Source: Cystobasidium ongulense
Taxonomy: Eukaryota > Basidiomycota > Cystobasidiomycetes > Cystobasidiales > Cystobasidiaceae
Reading direction: 5' to 3'
DNA: 64,000 bases
NCBI GenBank assembly: GCA_022835595.1
Contig: BQUP01000011.1
Location: 439,319-503,318 of the forward strand
Within the stretch, counting starts at the first letter, position 1, and each line of letters opens with the position of its first letter. The translations under genes were made by a program, and so were the position numbers. The notes beneath the pieces were generated by a model. It had not been told where the DNA came from, searched no databases, and was given only the letters and a program-made list of their open reading frames with translations. This document shows, one piece after another, positions 1 through 51,529 of the stretch.

Positions 1-1007
1 GCAGGCAAAGCAAGGTCCGGTTTACATTTGACCAGAAATGATTGGAGCCAAGTTGATACTTGCCACGTAACTGTGTAGTGGAAGATAAGCATTAGGACAC
101 TTGTCACTTCAGGCGGAAGATGAATGAACCTACGAGATTTGCCAGATTGTGATACGAAGGCCGTGTTCATAAGTAAAGAAAGCATCGGTGATGGTGGAGC
201 CGGAGATTACACTTGAAAGGACATGCATCGTGAGTTTTGGTGATCATACCTCTAACAAATCGTCATAAGGCGCTTACGCAGAGGCAGCCATTCCCAGTCC
301 CTGAAGAATGCGAGCACCATAGAGTGAACCATAGGACTTGCTTACGGCACCCCATATGCAGCCAACCAACTGGATACCGGAGGATGAGTTAACGACAGTG
401 CTGTAATGGGTCCTTTCCCCCTTTCACGTACTTGAAATGCCGTAAAGAGCAAGTACATCAACCTGCGGCCGCAAAGATTCGAAAACATGACGACAAGAAT
501 AGCGCCAACGCCTGTTGATCTTGAAGGTAAGCGGAATCCCCCCGGGAAGTAGTCTCGTGCTCAACTTGCCTTCGAACATGACCAGGATTCCATTCAGGTT
601 GGCAACTTTCGAGATAGGCTCATTGAGATCTGTAGATACCTCGAGGAACGCCGGAACCAAGATAGGCCCGATAACACCGGTCAAACAGCTGATCCAGGTC
701 AAGGCGAAAAAAAGGAGCTGTGAATAACAGAATGGTACGCGTCAGAAGAAGAACTCAAAAAAGGGAAGGTTTTGGTACGCGTGAGGTGATGTCTGCGTAC
801 TTCCTTGCGAGCTCGGCTCCAGTTAAGCGGGTCTTTTGGATCATCAGAAGGTTGAGGGCGGAGGATGAGGTGGGTTCGCTTGGGATGTCGCTTCAGCTGT
901 CGAGCATCCCCAACATCCTCGACCTCGGGTGGATCAAAGAGGCAGGTTCCAGGGGGATCGATGTGACTGTCGCTTGGCTCAATCTGAAAGAATTTGTTGG
1001 TTCTCAT
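1..1007 (-). CDS. MFS transporter, 5' part (gene continues past left edge)
   Basis: Major facilitator superfamily permease of the fungal drug/carboxylate proton-antiporter type, acting in a membrane; the substrate is unknown. The start ATG at 1005-1007 opens a hydrophilic N-terminus that carries the family hallmark PQPSDDPKDPLNWSRARKEV just before the first helix. Exons read 1007..801, 717..570, 511..432, 369..278, then about 210..130 and a last piece beginning near 70; about 240 residues are visible. Helix 1 reads LLFFALTWISCLTGVIGPIL, and the loop 2-3 motif A region ends in NLCGRR. The intron 569..512 uses a GC donor (AAG|GCAAGT), since no GT donor keeps the frame. It is divergent from the alcohol dehydrogenase, so the two could share a promoter. 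Family certain, substrate not. Confidence 0.85.
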
Positions 1008-1385
1008 CGTGCTGGCTGGAAGAGGTGGGAGGAATTTGGAGATTAACAATGATAATGATGGGAACCAGAACCAGAAGAAGAAGAAGAAGAAGAGGGTAGC
1101 TCCCGCCTAAATACCCCATGGAGTCTTCAGGGCCAAACCCCGCTTTGACAATAAAAATGGAGGATTCTCCCCCGGCGATACTCTAGATTTTCCGGTTCTC
1201 CCTGGGAAAAACTCGGATCTAGAGGCGGGCCGCCTGGAGAGCTTGGAGAAGCAGGCGAAGGCCTAGAGGCGTTCAAGTGCATAACAGACCTGCAGCCGTA
1301 TAGCGAGAGTTGGTGTGGTAGCAGTGCGTGGTCGCGTTTCGAAGGAACAGCGTCCTGAAGCTCAGCCACTCATCGAAACATCAGC
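1008..1385. promoter_or_regulatory. Divergent intergenic region, MFS / alcohol dehydrogenase
   Basis: Short region between two divergent start codons that must hold both promoters. It contains a GAA-type microsatellite at about 1073-1095. No other convincing element was seen. Confidence 0.5.
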
Positions 1386-6625: not shown

Positions 6626-9600
6626 ATGGGTGAGTGGATGCAGCGTGACTAGAGCTATCAAGCTGCAGTTTCTGATGCCGCTGCTGCTTTCTGTTCTCCA
6701 GTTAACTTCACTATCGAGTACGTGCTCCCTCGTTGCTCGTTTCAACCAGCAGCACCTCATCTGATGCGTAATCGCTCCTTCCGCATTGCAGCCAGGTCCG
6801 TGAGCTTATGGACAAGCCGACCAACATCCGTAAGTACCTATGACTACTGTATGCGCTTGTTCAGCAGTACTAACTCCGCTTGTCCTGGCCAGGTAACATG
6901 TCGGGTGAGCATTGGGCTATCTTTTGAGACGAGAGTTTTCTCCATCGGCGATTATGCAGCATGCGACGGCAGCAGCGAAGTAATAGCTGCATCATAGCAT
7001 GTTGCATGCATTATACTCCCGATGGAGAAGATTCTCTGTAGCCTTCCATCGCTAAACGTCCCCGCTTTCTCGCCGCCAGTTATTGCCCACGTCGACCACG
7101 GAAAATCTACCCTCACCGACTCCCTCCTCGTCAAGGCCGGTATTGTCGCCGCTGCCCGTGGTGGTGATGCTCGTGCTATGGACACCCGTGCCGATGAGCA
7201 GGAGCGTGGTATCACCATCAAGTCTACCGCTATCTCCATGTACTTCGAGATGCCAAAGGAGGACATTGATGCCATCTCCCAGCAGACAACCAGTGCGTTC
7301 AGTTCTAGCTTACTCGGGAACAGTACATTCAGCATCGGTGTGCTTACGCTCCTCTTCCTCTTCATCCAGGCAACCAGTTCTTGATCAATCTCATCGACTC
7401 TCCTGGTCACGTTGATTTCTCCTCCGAGGTCACCGCCGCTCTCCGTGTCACCGATGGTGCTCTAGTCGTCGTCGACTGCATTGACGGTGTATGCGTACAA
7501 ACCGAGACTGTCCTCCGACAGGCTCTTACCGAGCGAATCAAGCCCGTCTGCGTCATCAACAAGGTCGACAGAGCTCTGCTTGAACTGCAAGTCGGAAAGG
7601 AAGAACTTTACCAGTCCTTCTCCCGAACCATCGAATCCGTCAACGTCATTATCTCTACCTACAACGACGAGGCTCTCGGTGATTGCCAGGTCTTCCCTGA
7701 GAAGGGAACAGTCGCTTTCGGTTCCGGTCTCCACGGATGGGCTTTCACTCTCCGAAACTTCGCCGCTCTCTACTCCAAGAAGTTCGGTGTACCCAAGGAA
7801 AAGGTGAGATCATTCAAAAACTTACAGATGGCGACGTTTGATTGGCGTCTGACTCTCTCCTTTTTGTTCTCGTCTCCAGCTCCTCAACCGTCTATGGGGC
7901 AACAACTACTTCAACCCTAAGACCAAGAAGTGGACTACCAAGGAAATGGATGCCGATGGCAAACAGCTCGAGCGATCTTTCAACATGTTCATCCTCGACC
8001 CCATCTTCAAGGTTTTCGATGCCGTCATGAACTTCAAGAAGGATGCCATTGGTCCTCTACTCGAGAAGCTCGAGATCTCCCTCAAGTCCGAAGAGCGAGA
8101 GATGGAAGGCAAGGCTCTCCTCAAGTCCATCATGAAGAAGTGGCTCCCCGCCGGTGACTCTCTCCTTGAGATGATTGTCATCAACCTTCCATCCCCCGTT
8201 ACTGCCCAGAGATACCGTGTTGAGACATTGTACGAGGGACCTATGGACGATGAGTGCGCTGTTGGTATTAGAAACTGCGACCCTAAAGCTCCTTTGATGT
8301 TGTACGTCTCCAAGATGGTACCCACCTCCGATAAGGGTCGATTCTACGCTTTCGGACGTGTCTTCTCCGGAACCGTCTCTGCTGGACCCAAGGTCCGCAT
8401 CCAGGGACAGAACTACGTTCCAGGCAAGAAGGAGGATCTCTTCATCAAGTCTATCCAGCGAACCGTTCTCATGATGGGAGGCCGAGTTGATCCTATCGAG
8501 GACTGCCCAGCCGGTAACATCGTCGGTCTAGTTGGTGTTGATCAGTTCTTGCTCAAGAGCGGAACTTTGACCACTTCCGAAGTTGCCCACAACATGAAGG
8601 TCATGAAGTTCTCCGTCTCCCCCGTCGTCCAGCGTGCCGTCGAGGTCAAGAACGCCAACGATCTACCCAAGCTCGTTGAAGGTCTCAAGCGTCTCTCAAA
8701 GTCCGATCCATGTGTACTCTGCACAATCTCCGAGTCCGGTGAGCACATTGTTGCCGGTGCTGGTGAGCTCCATTTGGAAATTTGCTTGAAGGATCTCGAG
8801 GAGGACCACGCTGGTGTCCCATTGAAGATCTCCCCTCGTAAGTTGACTGTGCTAGCGTGTATGCGTGTCATCCTGTATCGGTGTCTGAGTTTCAATTGTA
8901 TGTGTGCGTTTGGCTGGGTTCTCAGCTGTCGTCGGTTACAGAGAGACCATTCAGGCCGAGTGCGAGGAGCCCGCTTTGTCCAAGTCGCAGAACAAGCACA
9001 ACAGGCTGTGGATCAAGGGACAACCTCTTGATGAGGAAGTTGCCAAGGCCATCGAAGCTGGCAAGATCGCTCCCCGAGACGACTTCAAGCTCCGTGCTCG
9101 TCTTCTCGCCGATGAATACGGCTGGGATGTCACCGAGGCCCGAAAGATTTGGTGCTTCGGTCCTGAAGGTTCGGGACCTAACTTGTTGGTTGATACCACC
9201 AAGGCTGTTCAGTACTTGAACGAAATCAAGGACTCTTGCGTTGCTGCCTTCCAGTGGGCTACCAAGGAGGTGAGTCGCCTTCCATATCTTGTGGCAGTTC
9301 CAGCGAATCGAAGAGCAGGTTGTAACCCTTTGCATGTATTCTCTTCCTTGTTCCGTTTCGTAGGGTGTCTGCGCCGAAGAGAACATGCGCTCTACCCGCT
9401 TCAACATGATTGATGTCACCCTACACACCGATGCCATCCACAGAGGTGGTGGCCAGATCATCCCAACATGCCGACGTGCCATCTACGCCGCCTCCATCAT
9501 GAGCAAGCCTGGTCTCATGGAGCCAGTCTACCTCGTCGAAATTGTCTGCCCCGAGACCGGTCTCGGTGGTATCTACTCTACCCTCAACAAGAAGCGTGGT

Positions 9601-13573: not shown

Positions 13574-16323
13574 TCATCGTTCAAAGTCGGAGAATCCTAT
13601 GGACTTCAAGAATTGATCTATGTACTCTGCACTTGGCAACTGACCCATTTGTAGTGCGTTCACCTCCACCGGTACTCCACCACTCTGTAAATCAAGAGCT
13701 TCACCCATGCTGTTTTCAGAATACCACTGGTTCGGCGGTGTGGTGCCTTGCAGTATCTCCTGAATCCTAGCTTGCGAGTCTTTGCTGAAGCTCGGGCTTT
13801 GACTGGCGAACGAACCGGAAGACGGCTCCAAAGCTTGATAAGATGGCTGCTGGGCCAGTGGTCTGTAGCTTCCTTCCTGAGGTATCGGCGAAAGATTGAC
13901 GAATTCCGAAAAGAAACAGGCGGGAGGCGCCGTATTTGTGCTCTGCTGAGTCTCCAAGTGCGCTATGACACTGTCCAGATACTCTTGATGCGGCTGTACC
14001 TGGCCGCTGCTCCAGCCAGTGATAGCAATTCCCTCACGCAAGGCCTTCAGATCGCTGATCTTGTCCGAGAGCGAGTAATCAGTGCGACCGCCTTCTTCGA
14101 GCGTTCGCGTATCGACAAGCAGGCTTATCCAGACAGGCAAGCCTTCGTGGGTGAAATACCCGGGGCCGAAGAAGTCAGCACTAGCGGCGTCCTCTGACGC
14201 GAGCATGTCCTAAAAGCGCGCCAGTCAGTTCACTTTCACCAAGCTATGGCGCCCTTACTTACGCCTATGCTCTTCATCACTCTTCGTGCAGCTTGAAATG
14301 CCTCTTCTGTAGATTGCCTTCGCAGACTTTGCAGCCGTGCATGATATGCCTCGAACGTGTCTTGATCAAGTCGCCCTGATGCTGTAGGATGAGATGCTAC
14401 TCTGGCTCTGGCAAGTTCCTCTACTGAACAACGCCACAGTATGACCCGGTGAGCTTGCGCTAACATGAAATCCATGCAGTATTTAAAGACCCTTCTTTGC
14501 ACTGGCGGCTCTTGATTGGTAGATCGCAAAAGCAGCAGAGCTTCCGCAAATGTTTCCCGACACTGCTTCAATGTGGAATAGAAGTCGTCAAATGACTGTA
14601 ACTTCAAGCGAGGTCGCGTCGCGGCCAGAGCTAAAATATCGGAGTCTCAGCTGAAATAATAGAGAGCTCTAATACAGGGGTCGGAGGCGACTTACGCTGA
14701 GTGACGTCCGTTACGAACTTCCGCACCAATTTTAGCAGACACACCCACAATAGCATGAGCTTAGGTCCTTCGAGGAGTCCGCTGAATTGTATGACTCATA
14801 TTTAGCCCGCTTTAAAGTGCTAATTATTCATCGACACTCACTTTTCTATCCAGCAATCCGCAAGCGATCTCGGAGACGGCAGTTCTATAGGTGCATCTTC
14901 ATCAACATGGAGGATCATGAAGACATCGCTGCCCGTGCTGTGCGGGAGATTGTCGTCAACGTCATGTACCTCGATATGCACACGTACAACATCACCTACA
15001 AGTCCAAAGCACGACCAGTCACACTTGCGACCAGCGCATCTCGTATGAATGCTGTCCATACCACGCTATAGAATGCAAAGGGATCGCTTGGGTGACCCAT
15101 GCTCTCATCTGCCAGTATACGGATGTGACTTGCTACAGCAGCTGAGAGTGGTCTGGCATTTCGAGAGGCGCTTTTGGTGAACGCTAATGAATCTTGGTAC
15201 ACCAGAATAAGCGTTTCAACGGTAGCAAGAGCGGCTATACTTCTTAAAGATGGCTTGGTTAAAAGCTGATTTTCGTTGATCCTGCGGTACGCCACTTGTA
15301 ACAGCTCAGATGCTAGTTGTTCCCTACGTTTGCCGAATGCGCAGAGTGTGCTGCCTCTCCGAAGTGCTGGATCTTGCGACACTTGATGTAATTCTGGCGC
15401 ATTCGGCCCGACTACCAACTCGGATGGCGATGTCCGAGCGCTGAGAGCTGCAAGCGAGAGGAAGAGCGCTTGATTTTCGCCATCCATGTTCGAAAGACGG
15501 CCGTCGGCATCTCGAAATTCATTTGCAATCTCAATCCACCGAAGCAGCGGGAAGTTGGCACTGTGATGGGTCAATTCATCAGCTGGTAACAGTATACGAC
15601 CACACGAGTTCCACCTACACTTGAAGCTTGGCTACGGCCGGCACTAGTTCGTTGAGCAGCAGGCTCGCATCCATCGAGGCAATCATTGCCACCTCAGTAG
15701 CCGAAGGCGTTCTCGGTCGTGACTGCTCCAGCAGTCCATGATGTGTGCGAAGCGCCATCGTATTGGAGTCACAGCTAGATGCATCCCCATAAATTATCCT
15801 CGCTCGTGCTATCCGAGCACCTTTCTGTGATGTTCTTGTTTGTGGTTTCGAAGTAACGCATCTGCAATGGGGAACAACAGCAGTCAGAAAGCTGCCTCGA
15901 GGACGCAACAGCCGACTACTTTGCACAGTCGCCAGACCAGTGAGCTCGTTCTGTACAGAGACCAGGCAGCCTCTGTGACAGACCTTCCCTGGTCTCTCTT
16001 CCAACGCTTTTCATATGAAACACGTGCTACTAGACTTGCCTGATGTCCACTTTCAAGCAGCTGGAGCACGAGTCAGTACGCGCTTCTGTTCTCTGACACT
16101 TGATCCTCCGGATACGACACGCATCGCATGCTCTCGCCCTTCTGTCTTTAGCAGCTGGTCTTGGTGCGTCTGTCTGGCTCGTCGACGCTGCTGAAGTCGA
16201 GGCTGCAAGTGAAAGCCCGCCGGCCGGATCTTCCCACGCATGCAGTCGAGATGTCGGCTGTGCGTAGGTAGACACTAGCTTGTCACTCAGATAGCTGTCC
16301 AGCCAGCTGCTCGTTATGTCCAT
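13574..16323 (-). CDS. Zn2Cys6 transcription factor, tandem copy 1, 757 aa
   Basis: Fungal binuclear-cluster DNA-binding regulator. Exons: 16323..16040, 15860..15619, 15560..15000, 14937..14842, 14781..14696, 14630..14263, 14209..13574, with the second acceptor at about 15861. The N-terminal cluster reads CDACRIRRIKC ... CSSCLKVDIR|C. The last cysteine is supplied by exon 2, giving the canonical C-x2-C-x6-C spacing at both ends, but only if the first intron starts with GC (ATCAG|GCAAGT). The middle homology region has the LNELVPAVAKL and ANFPLLRWIEIANEFRDADG segments. It is collinear, exon for exon, with the next gene; exon 3 is 561 nt in both. The targets are unknown. The start was chosen by alignment with the paralogue's MDDMDDWLNSY. 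Confidence 0.9.
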
Positions 16324-16536: not shown

Positions 16537-19331
16537 CTACAGCGATGAGGTGTAGCCGTTATCAGCCAGAGGCGCGGAAAACCCAATGGACTTCAGAAAC
16601 TGGTCTATATACTCTGCACTGGGCAATTGACCCATGTCAAGTGCGCTCGGCTCTACCTGCGCTCCACCATCCTGTGAAAGAGGGCGGACCATGCCAGCTC
16701 CATAATTCCATAGGTCTGGCGGTGTAGTACCTTGCAGTATCTCCTGAATCCTAGCTTGCGAGTCTGAGCTGGGGCTCGAATTTTGATTGACAAAAGGAGT
16801 CGAAGATTGCTCCGAGGATTGATAGGATGGCTGATAAGCTGCTACCGGGTAGCCTGCTGTTTGCGGTGCAGGTGACATGTTTATATAGTCCGCGAAGAAA
16901 GAGGCAGGTGGAGCCATGATTGTTCTTTGTTGGTTCTCGAGGCTTGAAATGACATTGCTTAACTGCTCCAGATGGGGCTGAACAAGACCGCTACTCCAGC
17001 CAGTAATAGCGACACCCTCGCGTAGAGCTTTGAGATCGCTAATCTTGTCAGACAGCGAATAATCGACACGCCCTCCTTCTTCCAGCGTTCGTGTATCGAT
17101 AAGCAGGCTTGTCCAGACAAGCAGGCCTTCGTAAATGAAATACCCTGGCACGAAGAACTCGGCGTTGCCTCCATCATCCGGTGCGAAAGTTTCCTGCAAG
17201 TCGGCCAGTCAGTCGTGTGCACTGTGTAAGTCCCGTAAACGGAGAGAACCCACTCCAATAGTTTTCATGACTCGTCGAGCAGCTTGAAATGCTTCTTCGG
17301 CAGATCTCACCCGCAGACTTTGTAACGCGCTTTTATAGGTCTCGAAGTCGTCTTGCTGTGGGCCGCTAACAGAAGTCAAGGCTGTTCTAGCTCTGGCGAG
17401 TTGTTCTTCTGAACAGCGCCACGAGACAATACGATGAGCCTGAGCCATCATGAATTCCATGCAGTACTGAAGAATTCGTCTTTGTTCCGGAGGTTCCCGC
17501 CCCGTAGATTGCAAGAGCACTAAAGCTTGCGCGAATGATTCGCGACATTGCTTTAGTGTACTGTAGAGGTTGTCGAAAGTTTGCATTCTCAGACGAGGGC
17601 GCGCAGCGGCGAGAGCTTGTAGAGACGATATCGTCAGCTAAGAATTAGGCTTCTGGCCATATTCGCATGCTTACGCTGTGTAACGTCATTGACGAATTGC
17701 CGTACGGCCTTAAGGACACTTGACCACAGCTTCATAAGCATTGGCCCTTCAAGCACGCTGTGGATTGAGGTTAGGTCAACGTGTTGCATTATGTGCTTAG
17801 CTCATGCCTATCTCACTGGGTAAGCCAACTGTCGAAAAGCGCTTGCGGAGAAGGCACATCTATCGGTTCCTCTTCATCGACTTTCAGTATGATGAAAACA
17901 TCGTTGGTCGTACTATTGAGTGGGTCAGCCCTCAAAATGATATCCTTTTCCAGCATAAAACGGTCGAGCAACTTACAAATCCAGGGCGCGGCCAGTCACG
18001 GTCGATAAGAGCGCGTCCCGTATGAGTGCAGTCCACGCCACGCTGTAGAAGCCAAAGGGAGCTGTCGGCTGGCCATTGCTTTCCTCTGCCAGTATTCTCA
18101 GGTGACTGGCTACAGCAGCCGACAGCGGTCTAGCATTTCGCGCAGCTGCTCTTGTGAAAGGCAAAGAATCTTGATATACCAGAATGAGCATTTCGACCGT
18201 AGCAAGCGCTGCTATACTCCTGAGTGATGGCGTTGCTAGAAGCTGGTTTTCGTTAATCTTGCGGTAGGCCACCTGCAACAGCTCAGAGGCGACCTTATCT
18301 CGGCGTGTTCCATATTCGCAAAGTGCACTCCCTTGCCGAAGCTCTCGATTTTGAGACACTTGCTGCAGTGTTGGAGCATTATCTCCGACAACAAGTGGAG
18401 AGTGGGATGTTCTAGCACCTAGAGCCGCGAGGGAAAGGAACAGCGCTTGCGAGATTTCATCCATATTTGACAAGCGGCCGTCAGCATCTCGAAATTCGTT
18501 GGCGATCTCAATCCACCGCAGCAGGGGAAATCTAGCACTGTTGTAGAAGCCAGTCTCAGATCAGCCATACGAGCGGTTCGAAGCAGAGAGATTTCCATAC
18601 ATTTTCAATTTTGCTACAGCAGGAACGAGCTCGTTGAGGAGAAGGCCAGCTTCGATTGATGCAACCATCAATATTTCGGTTGCCGAAGGCGTACGTGGCC
18701 GTGATTGCTCTTGAAGCGCCTTGTTGTTGCGAACAACCATGGCGAAAGCATTGGTACTCGATGCATCGCCGTACAGCAGCTTCGCTTGTGCTATTCGTGC
18801 GCCTTTCTGCGATGTTCTCGGCTTAGGTTTGGATTCAACGCATCTGTTCGGGGAAGCTGTCAGGTCAGTATGCGACGTGGCGTGCTGGAAGCAGAGGGAG
18901 CAGCCGGAGTCTTCTGTCGGAGCTAGCCTGGAGGCAGAAAGCATCCTCGGAGGAGCCCTTCAAATCCTCATTCGAGGATGCTGCTCATACGACTGCTCTG
19001 CCAGTCTCTCCGCAGTGCTGCACACCCAAACACGTGCGACTGAAACTTGCCTGATGTCCATCTTCACACAGCTATCGCAAGAATCCAGGCGAGTGTCTGT
19101 CCTCTGGCACCGTATCCGTCGTATCCGACAAGCATCGCACGCTCGTCGCTTCTTGTCCTTGATTGCTGCTCGCGGTGCTTCTTCCTGGCTCGTCGACGCC
19201 GTTGAAGTTGAGGCGACTGGCGACTCATCGCTGGCCGATGACTGCGGTGCGTAAGGGCCAGCTGGAGGCGAGGGTACAGGTACAAACACATTGTTCGTAT
19301 AGCTGTTCAGCCAGTCGTCCATGTCGTCCAT
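16537..19331 (-). CDS. Zn2Cys6 transcription factor, tandem copy 2, 760 aa
   Basis: Paralogue of the preceding gene in the same orientation, 213 bp upstream of it. Exons: 19331..19051, 18843..18601, 18537..17977, 17912..17817, 17757..17675, 17615..17254, 17193..16537. The zinc cluster is CDACRIRRIRC ... CDSCVKMDIR|C, again split by an intron with a GC donor (ATCAG|GCAAGT). Every intron position and phase matches copy 1, so the pair arose by tandem duplication after the intron pattern was fixed. The C-terminus (PSAEYIDQFLKSIGFS) is conserved between copies, while the Q/S-rich linkers have drifted. Targets unknown. A related-gene fragment lies just upstream on the other strand. Confidence 0.9.
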
Positions 19332-49257: not shown

Positions 49258-51529
49258 TTATACCTTTTTAGTAGGAACTCCAAATTGGCTTTCCGTGACT
49301 CCTTTACCCATAGCAGCGGTAGAAGATACACCACCAGTGACAGTTTTCAATAACCCATCCACATATTCCGCTCCAGACCATTTCTGATGCATCAGAACAT
49401 CTGTACCAATTTCTCTTTCTTTACGTTGGATTAAAGTAACGTAGGCTTGCATTCCTTCTTTCGCGAATGCTTGTGCGAATTGATCTGATATCATTGCGTT
49501 GGAATGCAGACCAGCGAGCTAAACCGAAAGAAAATCATTGAATACATTAGCTCTGACTCCTTCGAGTTTATGAGGGATGAGCGGACTCACAGTAATAAAC
49601 TGCCACACGAAACCAAGCTTGCCCAATGCCCAAACATAATCTCTCATTTCCTTCTCTTCCATACCAGCTGCGTCCCAATTGAAAGAAGGAGACAGGTTAT
49701 AGGCTAGCCATTTCCTTGGGTGTACTGCTTTGACTCCATCAGAGAATTCTTTCGCTTGTTTAAGAATAGGTTTAGCGGTTTCCATCCAAATAGCGTCGCA
49801 GTAAGGGGCATAGTAGACAGCTCGATTTATACAAGTTTGCGTTCCTCCGGCCATTCTGTAGAATCCTTCTCGCGTCCTTGGTCCATCCCAATCCCAGAAT
49901 ATTCCAGCGTTGAACTCTCTCTTGGCCATTTTGGCGGCTTTGGCATGCGAGACATGTGCACTTCGTTTAAGGTAATCGTTGATCTTATCCGTAGAGACAC
50001 CCTTCTTCTTCAACTCGGCAGCTATAGCGTCTCCATACAGCGATAGACCAGCTTTTGCGATCCAGTCATCTTCAACAGCTTGTAGCTCATCTCCAGTCTT
50101 TCCAGATTTTTCCGCCTTTGTCATAACTTCGACTAGGGGATCTAAATTTTCATTTGTACTACCTAGAATAAAAGCATGATCTCTCTCATCTACATTGGTA
50201 GAAATAAGGGTAGCAGCCTCTGCATCTGTTCTACAGACGATGAGATTTTCAACTCCCATTATGTCGTATTGTAGTCTGATGGCAATGAGTCGATTGATGT
50301 GTTCTGAAATTGGAACGAGAACTTTTCCTGCCATGTGACCACATTTCTTTGTTCCTGGTGCTTGATCTTCAATGTGAATACCAGCTGCTCCCTTTTCAAC
50401 AAAAAGCTTGGTGAGCTTCATGACGGCTGTGAGACCTCCATGGCCAGTATCAGCATCGGCGATGATGGGTCGGAGGTCTATTGAAACACTTTATCAGTAT
50501 TGGTGAGCTATCAAGGTAGGGCTGCATATGCTCACAGTCAACATAAGGAACCTCCGCTCGCTGCTTGGCAGACATGTTGCTTCTAGCTTCACGTTGTTTC
50601 CGGTCATGGAAGAGCTGAGCCATGAAGAGGTGCTCCACTTTGTTGGGTACCTGAAGGACAGAATTATATTAGTGATGAAGCATCGTATGTAACTGAGCAT
50701 AAGTTGTCGCTCACGGTATTGTAAGGGCTATACAGTGTAAAGGGATAAAGTCAGTTTCGTGCAAGGTTCCTCGGCATCTGAAAGAAAACCCACTAGTCTA
50801 ATCCAGTGAAAGAGATCGTCAGTATAATACGCAAGATCATCGCTTTGTGTACGTTACTCACCTGCTAGATCTGGACCAGGCTCATTGGTTGAACTGGCGG
50901 TACTAGAGCACTGCCAGCCTGATACATAGACGGTTTCGAGGTACTTTGCCATCTGCGAGACTTGTACTGGGTCGAGGCTGCGAAGACCAGAGTACGCATG
51001 GTCAGTCGGATCATATGAAGACACATAAAAATGCAAGGTTATAATCTAAGTGACTCACGCGCCATAAGTATGCGAAGGTGTCCCATTCTTTGCATGTTCA
51101 GAGAGGAGGTTGTGCAGTTTCTTGCCCTGGACCGCAGAGGGGTACGAGATTGGAATAGTACCTCTCTTGCTGACTACTTGTTCTGCGGTGTATGGTCTGA
51201 CGAGCCCTTCGAAACGTGGGGACTGGAGGTGGAAGTGTGGGGGAGTGCGTTACGGAGGTGGATGGGAGATGGTGGAGGGAGGAAAGCAAGGAAGGAAAGC
51301 AAATGAATGAAGGACAGTCAGCAATGGACAAGTCATGCACTAGCATAGTAGCAGTCTTGCGTGCTCTCAATGCTCATGTAGGGTAGACATCAAAGAAGCC
51401 GGAGCCCGGAAAAGCCGAGGAGAAAGTTGTGACCTCCGACGCTGCACTCACCTTCCACCATTCCTTGACGGCCTCTACCTCTTGCTTGAAGAGCTTGTCC
51501 TCTTGGGCGACTAGATTGGATTGCGACAT
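49258..51529 (-). CDS. ICL1: Isocitrate lyase, 545 aa
   Basis: First enzyme of the glyoxylate bypass, cleaving isocitrate to succinate and glyoxylate; needed for growth on acetate and fatty acids. Exons: 51529..51452, 51222..51059, 50977..50862, 50797..50794 (4 nt), 50727..50715 (13 nt), 50650..50536, 50477..49591, 49518..49258. Only with the 4-nt ACTA and 13-nt exons does the conserved run [17 protein letters not shown] appear with the frame intact. The catalytic loop [18 protein letters not shown], the substrate segment [11 protein letters not shown] and the C-terminal VTESQF are present. GVPTKKV after VTESQF is a short extension whose last residues are not a typical PTS1. The first intron (229 nt) is long for this genome. 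Identity is certain. Confidence 0.96.

Follow-up and report, generated by a model that had tools for sequence, protein, structure and literature searches.

Does the isocitrate lyase (ICL) gene of Cystobasidium ongulense depend on an exon of four nucleotides, followed directly by another of thirteen? The gene lies complete on the minus strand of the 64,000-nucleotide stretch of DNA analysed here (hereafter 'the window'), running from position 51529 down to 49258. We see eight coding exons (Table 1), which join into a CDS of 1638 nt with a single open frame of 545 amino acids, and seven introns of 229, 81, 64, 66, 64, 58 and 72 nt, GT-AG in 7/7 cases. The protein predicted with ACTA included belongs to the ICL family by full-length matches above curated cut-offs, both to PF00463 (875.5 bits, cut-off 26; profile positions 1-526 of 526) and to TIGR01346 (760.3 bits, cut-off 275.9; 2-527 of 527), and its residues 7-538 align with the solved ICL structure 1dqu at an E-value of 8.8e-226; we take the latter to be the Aspergillus enzyme. 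The KKCGH motif, which we assume to be the ICL signature, is present within a 13-residue stretch at positions 207-219 of the 545-residue protein; the same 13 residues are found in 1dqu and, save for an M/Q exchange, in a second ICL-family gene of the genome. With high confidence we read the locus as an intact, fungal-type ICL gene, from which seven GT-AG introns would be removed and in which both the 4-nt and the 13-nt exon would be included constitutively.

Table 1. Coordinates of the ICL gene parts, of competing splice sites and of other small exons (window positions unless a locus is named).
Feature	Location	Strand	Length	Remarks
ICL exon 1	51452..51529	-	78 nt	ATG at 51529; spliced alignment recovers it from 51511 on
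ICL exon 2	51059..51222	-	164 nt	CDS reconstruction and spliced alignment
ICL exon 3	50862..50977	-	116 nt	3' end ...CTA GCA G; CDS reconstruction and spliced alignment
ICL intron 3	50798..50861	-	64 nt	GTGAGT...ATTAG; branch-like TACTGAC at 50824-50818
ICL exon 4	50794..50797	-	4 nt	candidate microexon ACTA; completes GAC, gives TA of TAC
ICL intron 4	50728..50793	-	66 nt	GTGGGT...TATAG; branch-like AACTGAC at 50756-50750
ICL exon 5	50715..50727	-	13 nt	candidate microexon CCCTTACAATACC
ICL intron 5	50651..50714	-	64 nt	GTGAGC...TTCAG; branch-like CACTAAT at 50674-50668
ICL exon 6	50536..50650	-	115 nt	VPNKVEHLF...; CDS reconstruction and spliced alignment
ICL exon 7	49591..50477	-	887 nt	carries the 13-residue stretch with KKCGH; CDS reconstruction and spliced alignment
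ICL exon 8	49258..49518	-	261 nt	stop TAA; spliced alignment recovers it to 49282
Cryptic acceptor	50778..50791	-		GGGTTTTCTTTCAG; inside intron 4; 5.4 bits vs 2.0 for the ACTA acceptor
Rival intron	50728..50857	-	130 nt	GTAACG...TATAG; donor 4 nt downstream of intron 3 donor (GTGA/GTAACG)
Second ICL-family gene	G000:C3, about 1439500-1441469	-	567 aa	
EF2 microexon (putative)	6893-6904	+	12 nt	GTAACATGTCGG; R-N-M-S of a 15-residue stretch; between ccag and gtgagc
Rab11-like exon (putative)	L046 (G000:C2:646200-648200), 492-496		5 nt	CAACC; stable at intron penalties 8-24
Rab5-like exon (putative)	L044 (G000:C1:1073000-1075200)	-	5 nt	GCGAG, P-loop LGESAVGKSS; penalties 8-20, lost at 24
Ran exon (putative)	L049 (G000:C3:782000-784000), 347-352		6 nt	ATATCG, then a 31-nt exon; penalties 8-24
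Second Rab5-like gene, two exons (putative)	L053 (G000:C2:131700-133800), 919-926 and 1110-1123		8 nt and 14 nt	50-nt exon between; penalties 8-24

The preliminary description of this locus had placed both small exons between AG and GT dinucleotides, and the flanks read exactly so: ATTAG/ACTA/GTGGGT for the first and TATAG/CCCTTACAATACC/GTGAGC for the second. Joining the final G of exon 3 (position 50862) to ACTA, the 13-mer and exon 6 from position 50650 gives GAC TAC CCT TAC AAT ACC, again as described; the corresponding peptide is DLADYPYNTVPNK. We use 'microexon' for a spliceosomal, internal exon of at most 15 nt that has the AG of one intron before it and the GT of another after it. The two exons have such borders, and they are needed for the reading frame together with the conserved residues; the one competing arrangement that preserves the frame, through a donor shifted by four nucleotides (see below), does not preserve the residues. 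Coding and splice-site tests support two consecutive microexons; we infer inclusion from coding constraint together with splice signals, and the 4-nt reading is very probably right.

How strongly the sequence forces this chain can be gauged by enumeration. From the first base of exon 3 to the last of exon 6 one can build 116,283 chains that contain no more than three GT-AG introns, each 35 nt or longer; 5,888 of these leave the frame intact to the natural stop. Among all 116,283 the chain through ACTA and the 13-mer obtains the top alignment score, 286, and the next two obtain 269, one of these being the equal-length rival with the shifted donor. It is also the unique route to the motif D-Y-P-x-x-T when GT/GC-AG introns of at least 20 nt, up to four in number, are allowed. 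If AT donors and AC acceptors are permitted as well, again with up to four introns, two solutions for D-Y-P-x-x-T exist, both of them via ACTA; we rejected AT-AC introns, their sole additional solution making use of the same four nucleotides. The chain exceeds chance expectation, since none of 20,000 shuffles of the 211-nt stretch (dinucleotides preserved, outer donor and acceptor fixed, no more than three GT-AG introns, minimum intron length 45 nt) yields a D-Y-P-x-x-T chain; with the 13-nt exon granted, 26/20,000 yield a GAY-TA solution. A spliced-alignment script, given one ICL guide as input and GT-AG alone as splice motif, recovers both microexons at intron penalties of 5, 10 and 14.

The residues that the small exons restore had been called universally conserved, which goes too far. 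The tyrosine and the proline are identical in 11/11 other ICLs aligned, but the aspartate is replaced by leucine in the ten bacterial ICLs, and the two residues that follow DYP vary (YN in the window ICL; YT, MN or MD in the second ICL-family gene and PDB chains). The eleven comprise the second gene of the same genome and ten bacterial sequences, the latter taken from a plasmid collection, from among the 15 and 30 matches listed of 245 and 52; the window ICL was aligned with them and left out of the tyrosine count, because its own tyrosine is the point at issue. Six ICL chains, which we take to be fungal, were compared residue by residue, and their alignment continues uninterrupted across DLADYP. 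The second ICL-family gene has four introns and is 49% identical to the window ICL; its corresponding stretch, GPDLADYPYTTVPNQV, contains no intron, and we presume that it may be of the mitochondrial methylisocitrate lyase type. Searches of the viral-contig and genome-contig collections, with the protein and with a three-sequence alignment, found no ICL relatives for a comparison of intron positions.

Splice-site strengths were scored with a model built from 93 introns in 14 genes of this genome, introns below 50 nt removed (94 introns in the count of donor positions). The three donors claimed for the short introns score 9.9, 7.6 and 5.7 bits and are the best three in the stretch, the next reaching -0.5; that of intron 3 lies at the 84th percentile. 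Like the exon chain and its uniqueness for the conserved motif, these donor strengths are computed. The ACTA acceptor is weak: at 2.03 bits it occupies the 4th percentile of the 93 introns and is fourth in the stretch, the acceptor of ICL intron 6 being weaker still at 1.49 bits. This is the one signal that fits badly with efficient inclusion of the exon, and a better-scoring cryptic acceptor, CTTTCAG at 50778, lies 20 nt downstream; its use would give a product of 135 aa.

Such a configuration invites the thought of a regulated switch, whereby skipping of ACTA, use of the cryptic acceptor or retention of an intron would truncate the ICL mRNA, and inclusion would tune the enzyme with carbon source. 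Skipping ACTA, the 13-mer or both is predicted to give products of 181, 120 and 134 aa, and retention of introns 3, 4 and 5 products of 121, 120 and 141 aa, so that the three skips, the three retentions and the cryptic acceptor all lead to proteins of 120-181 aa; and passages of PMC11121469 report carbon-dependent use of a microexon in Xlr2 of Trichoderma virens, likewise a fungal microexon in a setting of carbon metabolism, although this one measures 20 nt, is regulated by glucose and belongs to a transcription factor. Against this, any out-of-frame exon truncates the product when skipped, so nothing special is predicted here, and the genome's EF2, Ran and Rab genes, with putative ultra-small exons of their own, suggest ordinary, constitutive use. 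We regard a regulated switch as unlikely.

The simple skips considered above agree with the earlier statement that loss of either exon changes both residues and frame; that statement fails for one case, in which ACTA is skipped and the upstream donor shifts by +4, frame and length being kept because the shift restores four bases. Here there would be two introns and no 4-nt exon, exon 3 extending to 50858 and a 130-nt intron leading to the 13-nt exon, and the full-length enzyme of 545 aa would carry LAGDPYNT (peptide LAGDPYNTVPNK). The option is structurally available, since every GTNNGT donor contains a GT at +4, and the spliced alignment chooses it at an intron penalty of 18. Its donor, however, scores -3.95 bits (1st percentile) and has C at position +5, where 89/94 donors have G; D120 becomes G, and Y121, Y in 11/11 other ICLs aligned, becomes D; the profile scores fall from 875.5 to 866.8 for PF00463 (-8.7 bits) and from 760.3 to 752.1 for TIGR01346 (-8.2 bits). 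We judge that the shifted form is not the main product and give this two-intron arrangement little credence. It is of practical concern all the same: an annotation program that charges heavily for introns could report the LAGDPYNT form, and one weak donor shift suffices for a protein of the same length minus its conserved tyrosine.

A pseudogene, or an assembly error imitating small exons, is very improbable in view of the open 1638-nt frame, the seven GT-AG introns out of seven, the full-length match to 1dqu (E 8.8e-226) and the three good donors where they would be expected. Least probable is a 'stwintron', in which intron 3 would be nested with intron 4 as a single unit and ACTA would be lost along with it: nested introns excised consecutively are documented in fungi (passages of PMC6616335 and PMC5639578), but such excision amounts to one contiguous deletion, with zero exonic bases between internal and external intron, and no single contiguous deletion that we tried, with any splice sites, gives DYPxxTVPNK, which excludes the arrangement for a functional enzyme.

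Returning to the chain with both microexons, the splicing process itself is one that we infer. Three short introns (64, 66 and 64 nt) would interrupt a coding stretch of 18 nt, and each, with its own donor and branch-like CTRAY site, probably engages the splicing machinery as a single unit ('intron definition'). Removal is probably sequential, because spliceosome components would hardly fit both edges of a 4-nt exon simultaneously; if intron 4 went first, ACTA would be embedded in a larger exon by the time intron 3 was spliced out; alternatively, intron 3 might leave first. Spliceosomes tend to follow a first-AG-after-the-branch rule, and the putative choice of ATTAG at 50798 over the better-scoring CTTTCAG at 50778 would be consistent with it. 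That the exons are so small is probably a side effect of intron density and not a means of regulation.

As to where a 4-nt exon might come from, introns 3 and 4 (50861-50728) resemble one another: 44/69 alignment columns are identical, and the branch-like site sits at equal offset in both. Their alignment score is reached by 14/20,000 shuffles and, with donor, branch heptamer and acceptor held in place, by 30/20,000. In the sampled genes, 861 intron pairs of similar length were compared and two reach it, both belonging to unrelated genes, so chance likeness is possible; moreover, the comparison was picked after the sequences had been seen. Across 13 intron pairs around small exons (one of these, around an exon judged spurious, included) introns 3 and 4 are the most striking, their score being matched by 0/1,000 shuffles; the runner-up, at 24/1,000, flanks a 19-nt exon of alpha-tubulin. 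We tentatively suggest that ACTA could be what an intron duplication left behind, with intron 4 copied from intron 3, or the reverse, and inserted 4 nt away while the coding sequence stayed unchanged, though we would sooner bet against this than for it. If true, it would mean that microexons in intron-dense fungi arise as introns copy themselves to nearby sites.

The ICL exons are probably not alone. In a census of 14 genes aligned to protein guides at 60% identity or above (7 of the 21 aligned genes, with guide identity below 0.6, were excluded both from this census and from the site model), 6/80 internal exons measure at most 15 nt, or 7/80 before one spurious case was removed, and 17/80, as counted before that removal, measure at most 30 nt. 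The case removed, a 12-nt 'exon' at the Rab5-like locus L044, is flanked by cagag and gtggacc and falls where the C-terminus matches poorly. Small exons in this census rest on protein guides, which for genes other than ICL and EF2 are human proteins. For the EF2 exon the first guide residues were assumed, and the result agrees with a reading of the sequence by eye; the start of the Ran gene was misjoined by its guide, and this gene was used for its 6-nt exon alone. The genome probably has further exons of 5, 5, 6, 8, 12 and 14 nt (Table 1). In a fungal genome apparently so rich in microexons, how the spliceosome handles exons of 4-8 nt would become testable, as would their origin, perhaps by duplication of neighbouring introns.

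Two statements in the preliminary description are too strong in the light of published work. Four nucleotides had been placed near the lower limit for a spliceosome; exons of a single nucleotide are described in passages of PMC4674806 and PMC12940212, so four nucleotides do not come close to any strict minimum. That two such exons in a row are rare is overstated, since rice Os08t0562700-01x has adjacent microexons of 5 nt and 12 nt, validated by RT-PCR, and rice has a separate 4-nt microexon besides (passages of PMC8831610): a consecutive pair of nearly equal sizes, and a 4-nt exon, albeit in a plant and with RT-PCR validation, whereas the fungal ICL pair is known from sequence. Another close parallel is the P450 gene CYP621A of Fusarium, in which a 1-nt exon has the support of sequence read archive reads (passages of PMC12940212); as in ICL, the organism is a fungus, the ultra-small exon falls within a conserved motif and the frame could not otherwise be joined, but the Fusarium exon is single and read-supported, while the predicted ICL exons of 4 nt and then 13 nt, in a gene of primary metabolism, are read from DNA. 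The bglA gene of basidiomycetous yeasts is likewise fungal and intron-dense, with ultra-small exons; its smallest measure 5 and 6 bp, with up to 10 exons below 30 bp per gene, and the authors consider several microexons to be putatively common in genes of these yeasts (passages of PMC9142197). Unlike in ICL, these exons come from cDNA, the gene encodes a beta-glycosidase and none is below 5 bp. APC11 of Arabidopsis shares with the ICL reading a constitutive exon smaller than was once thought possible, differing in that it belongs to a plant, measures 1 nt and was tested with reporter fusions (passages of PMC4674806). A 6-bp exon occurs among P450 genes of Phanerochaete (passages of PMC1184071), and to the passages of PMC3990503, PMC4014442, PMC8022950 and PMC8042270, which touch on microexons in passing, as method settings or in animals, we give no weight here.

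The novelty of the finding is thus modest, exons of such size being already known in plants and in fungi. In the open literature we found no paper containing both 'isocitrate lyase' and 'microexon' (the spelling 'micro-exon' and subscription papers lay outside the search). What ICL would offer is a clean case: the protein of a central metabolic gene relies on an exon of 4 nt, and gene-prediction programs could easily misread the gene.

Elsewhere in the window, on the minus strand, an open-reading-frame list read by eye contains two frame pairs that resemble one another, at 13574-14209, 14996-15631, 16537-17208 and 17973-18560, which suggest tandem gene duplication.
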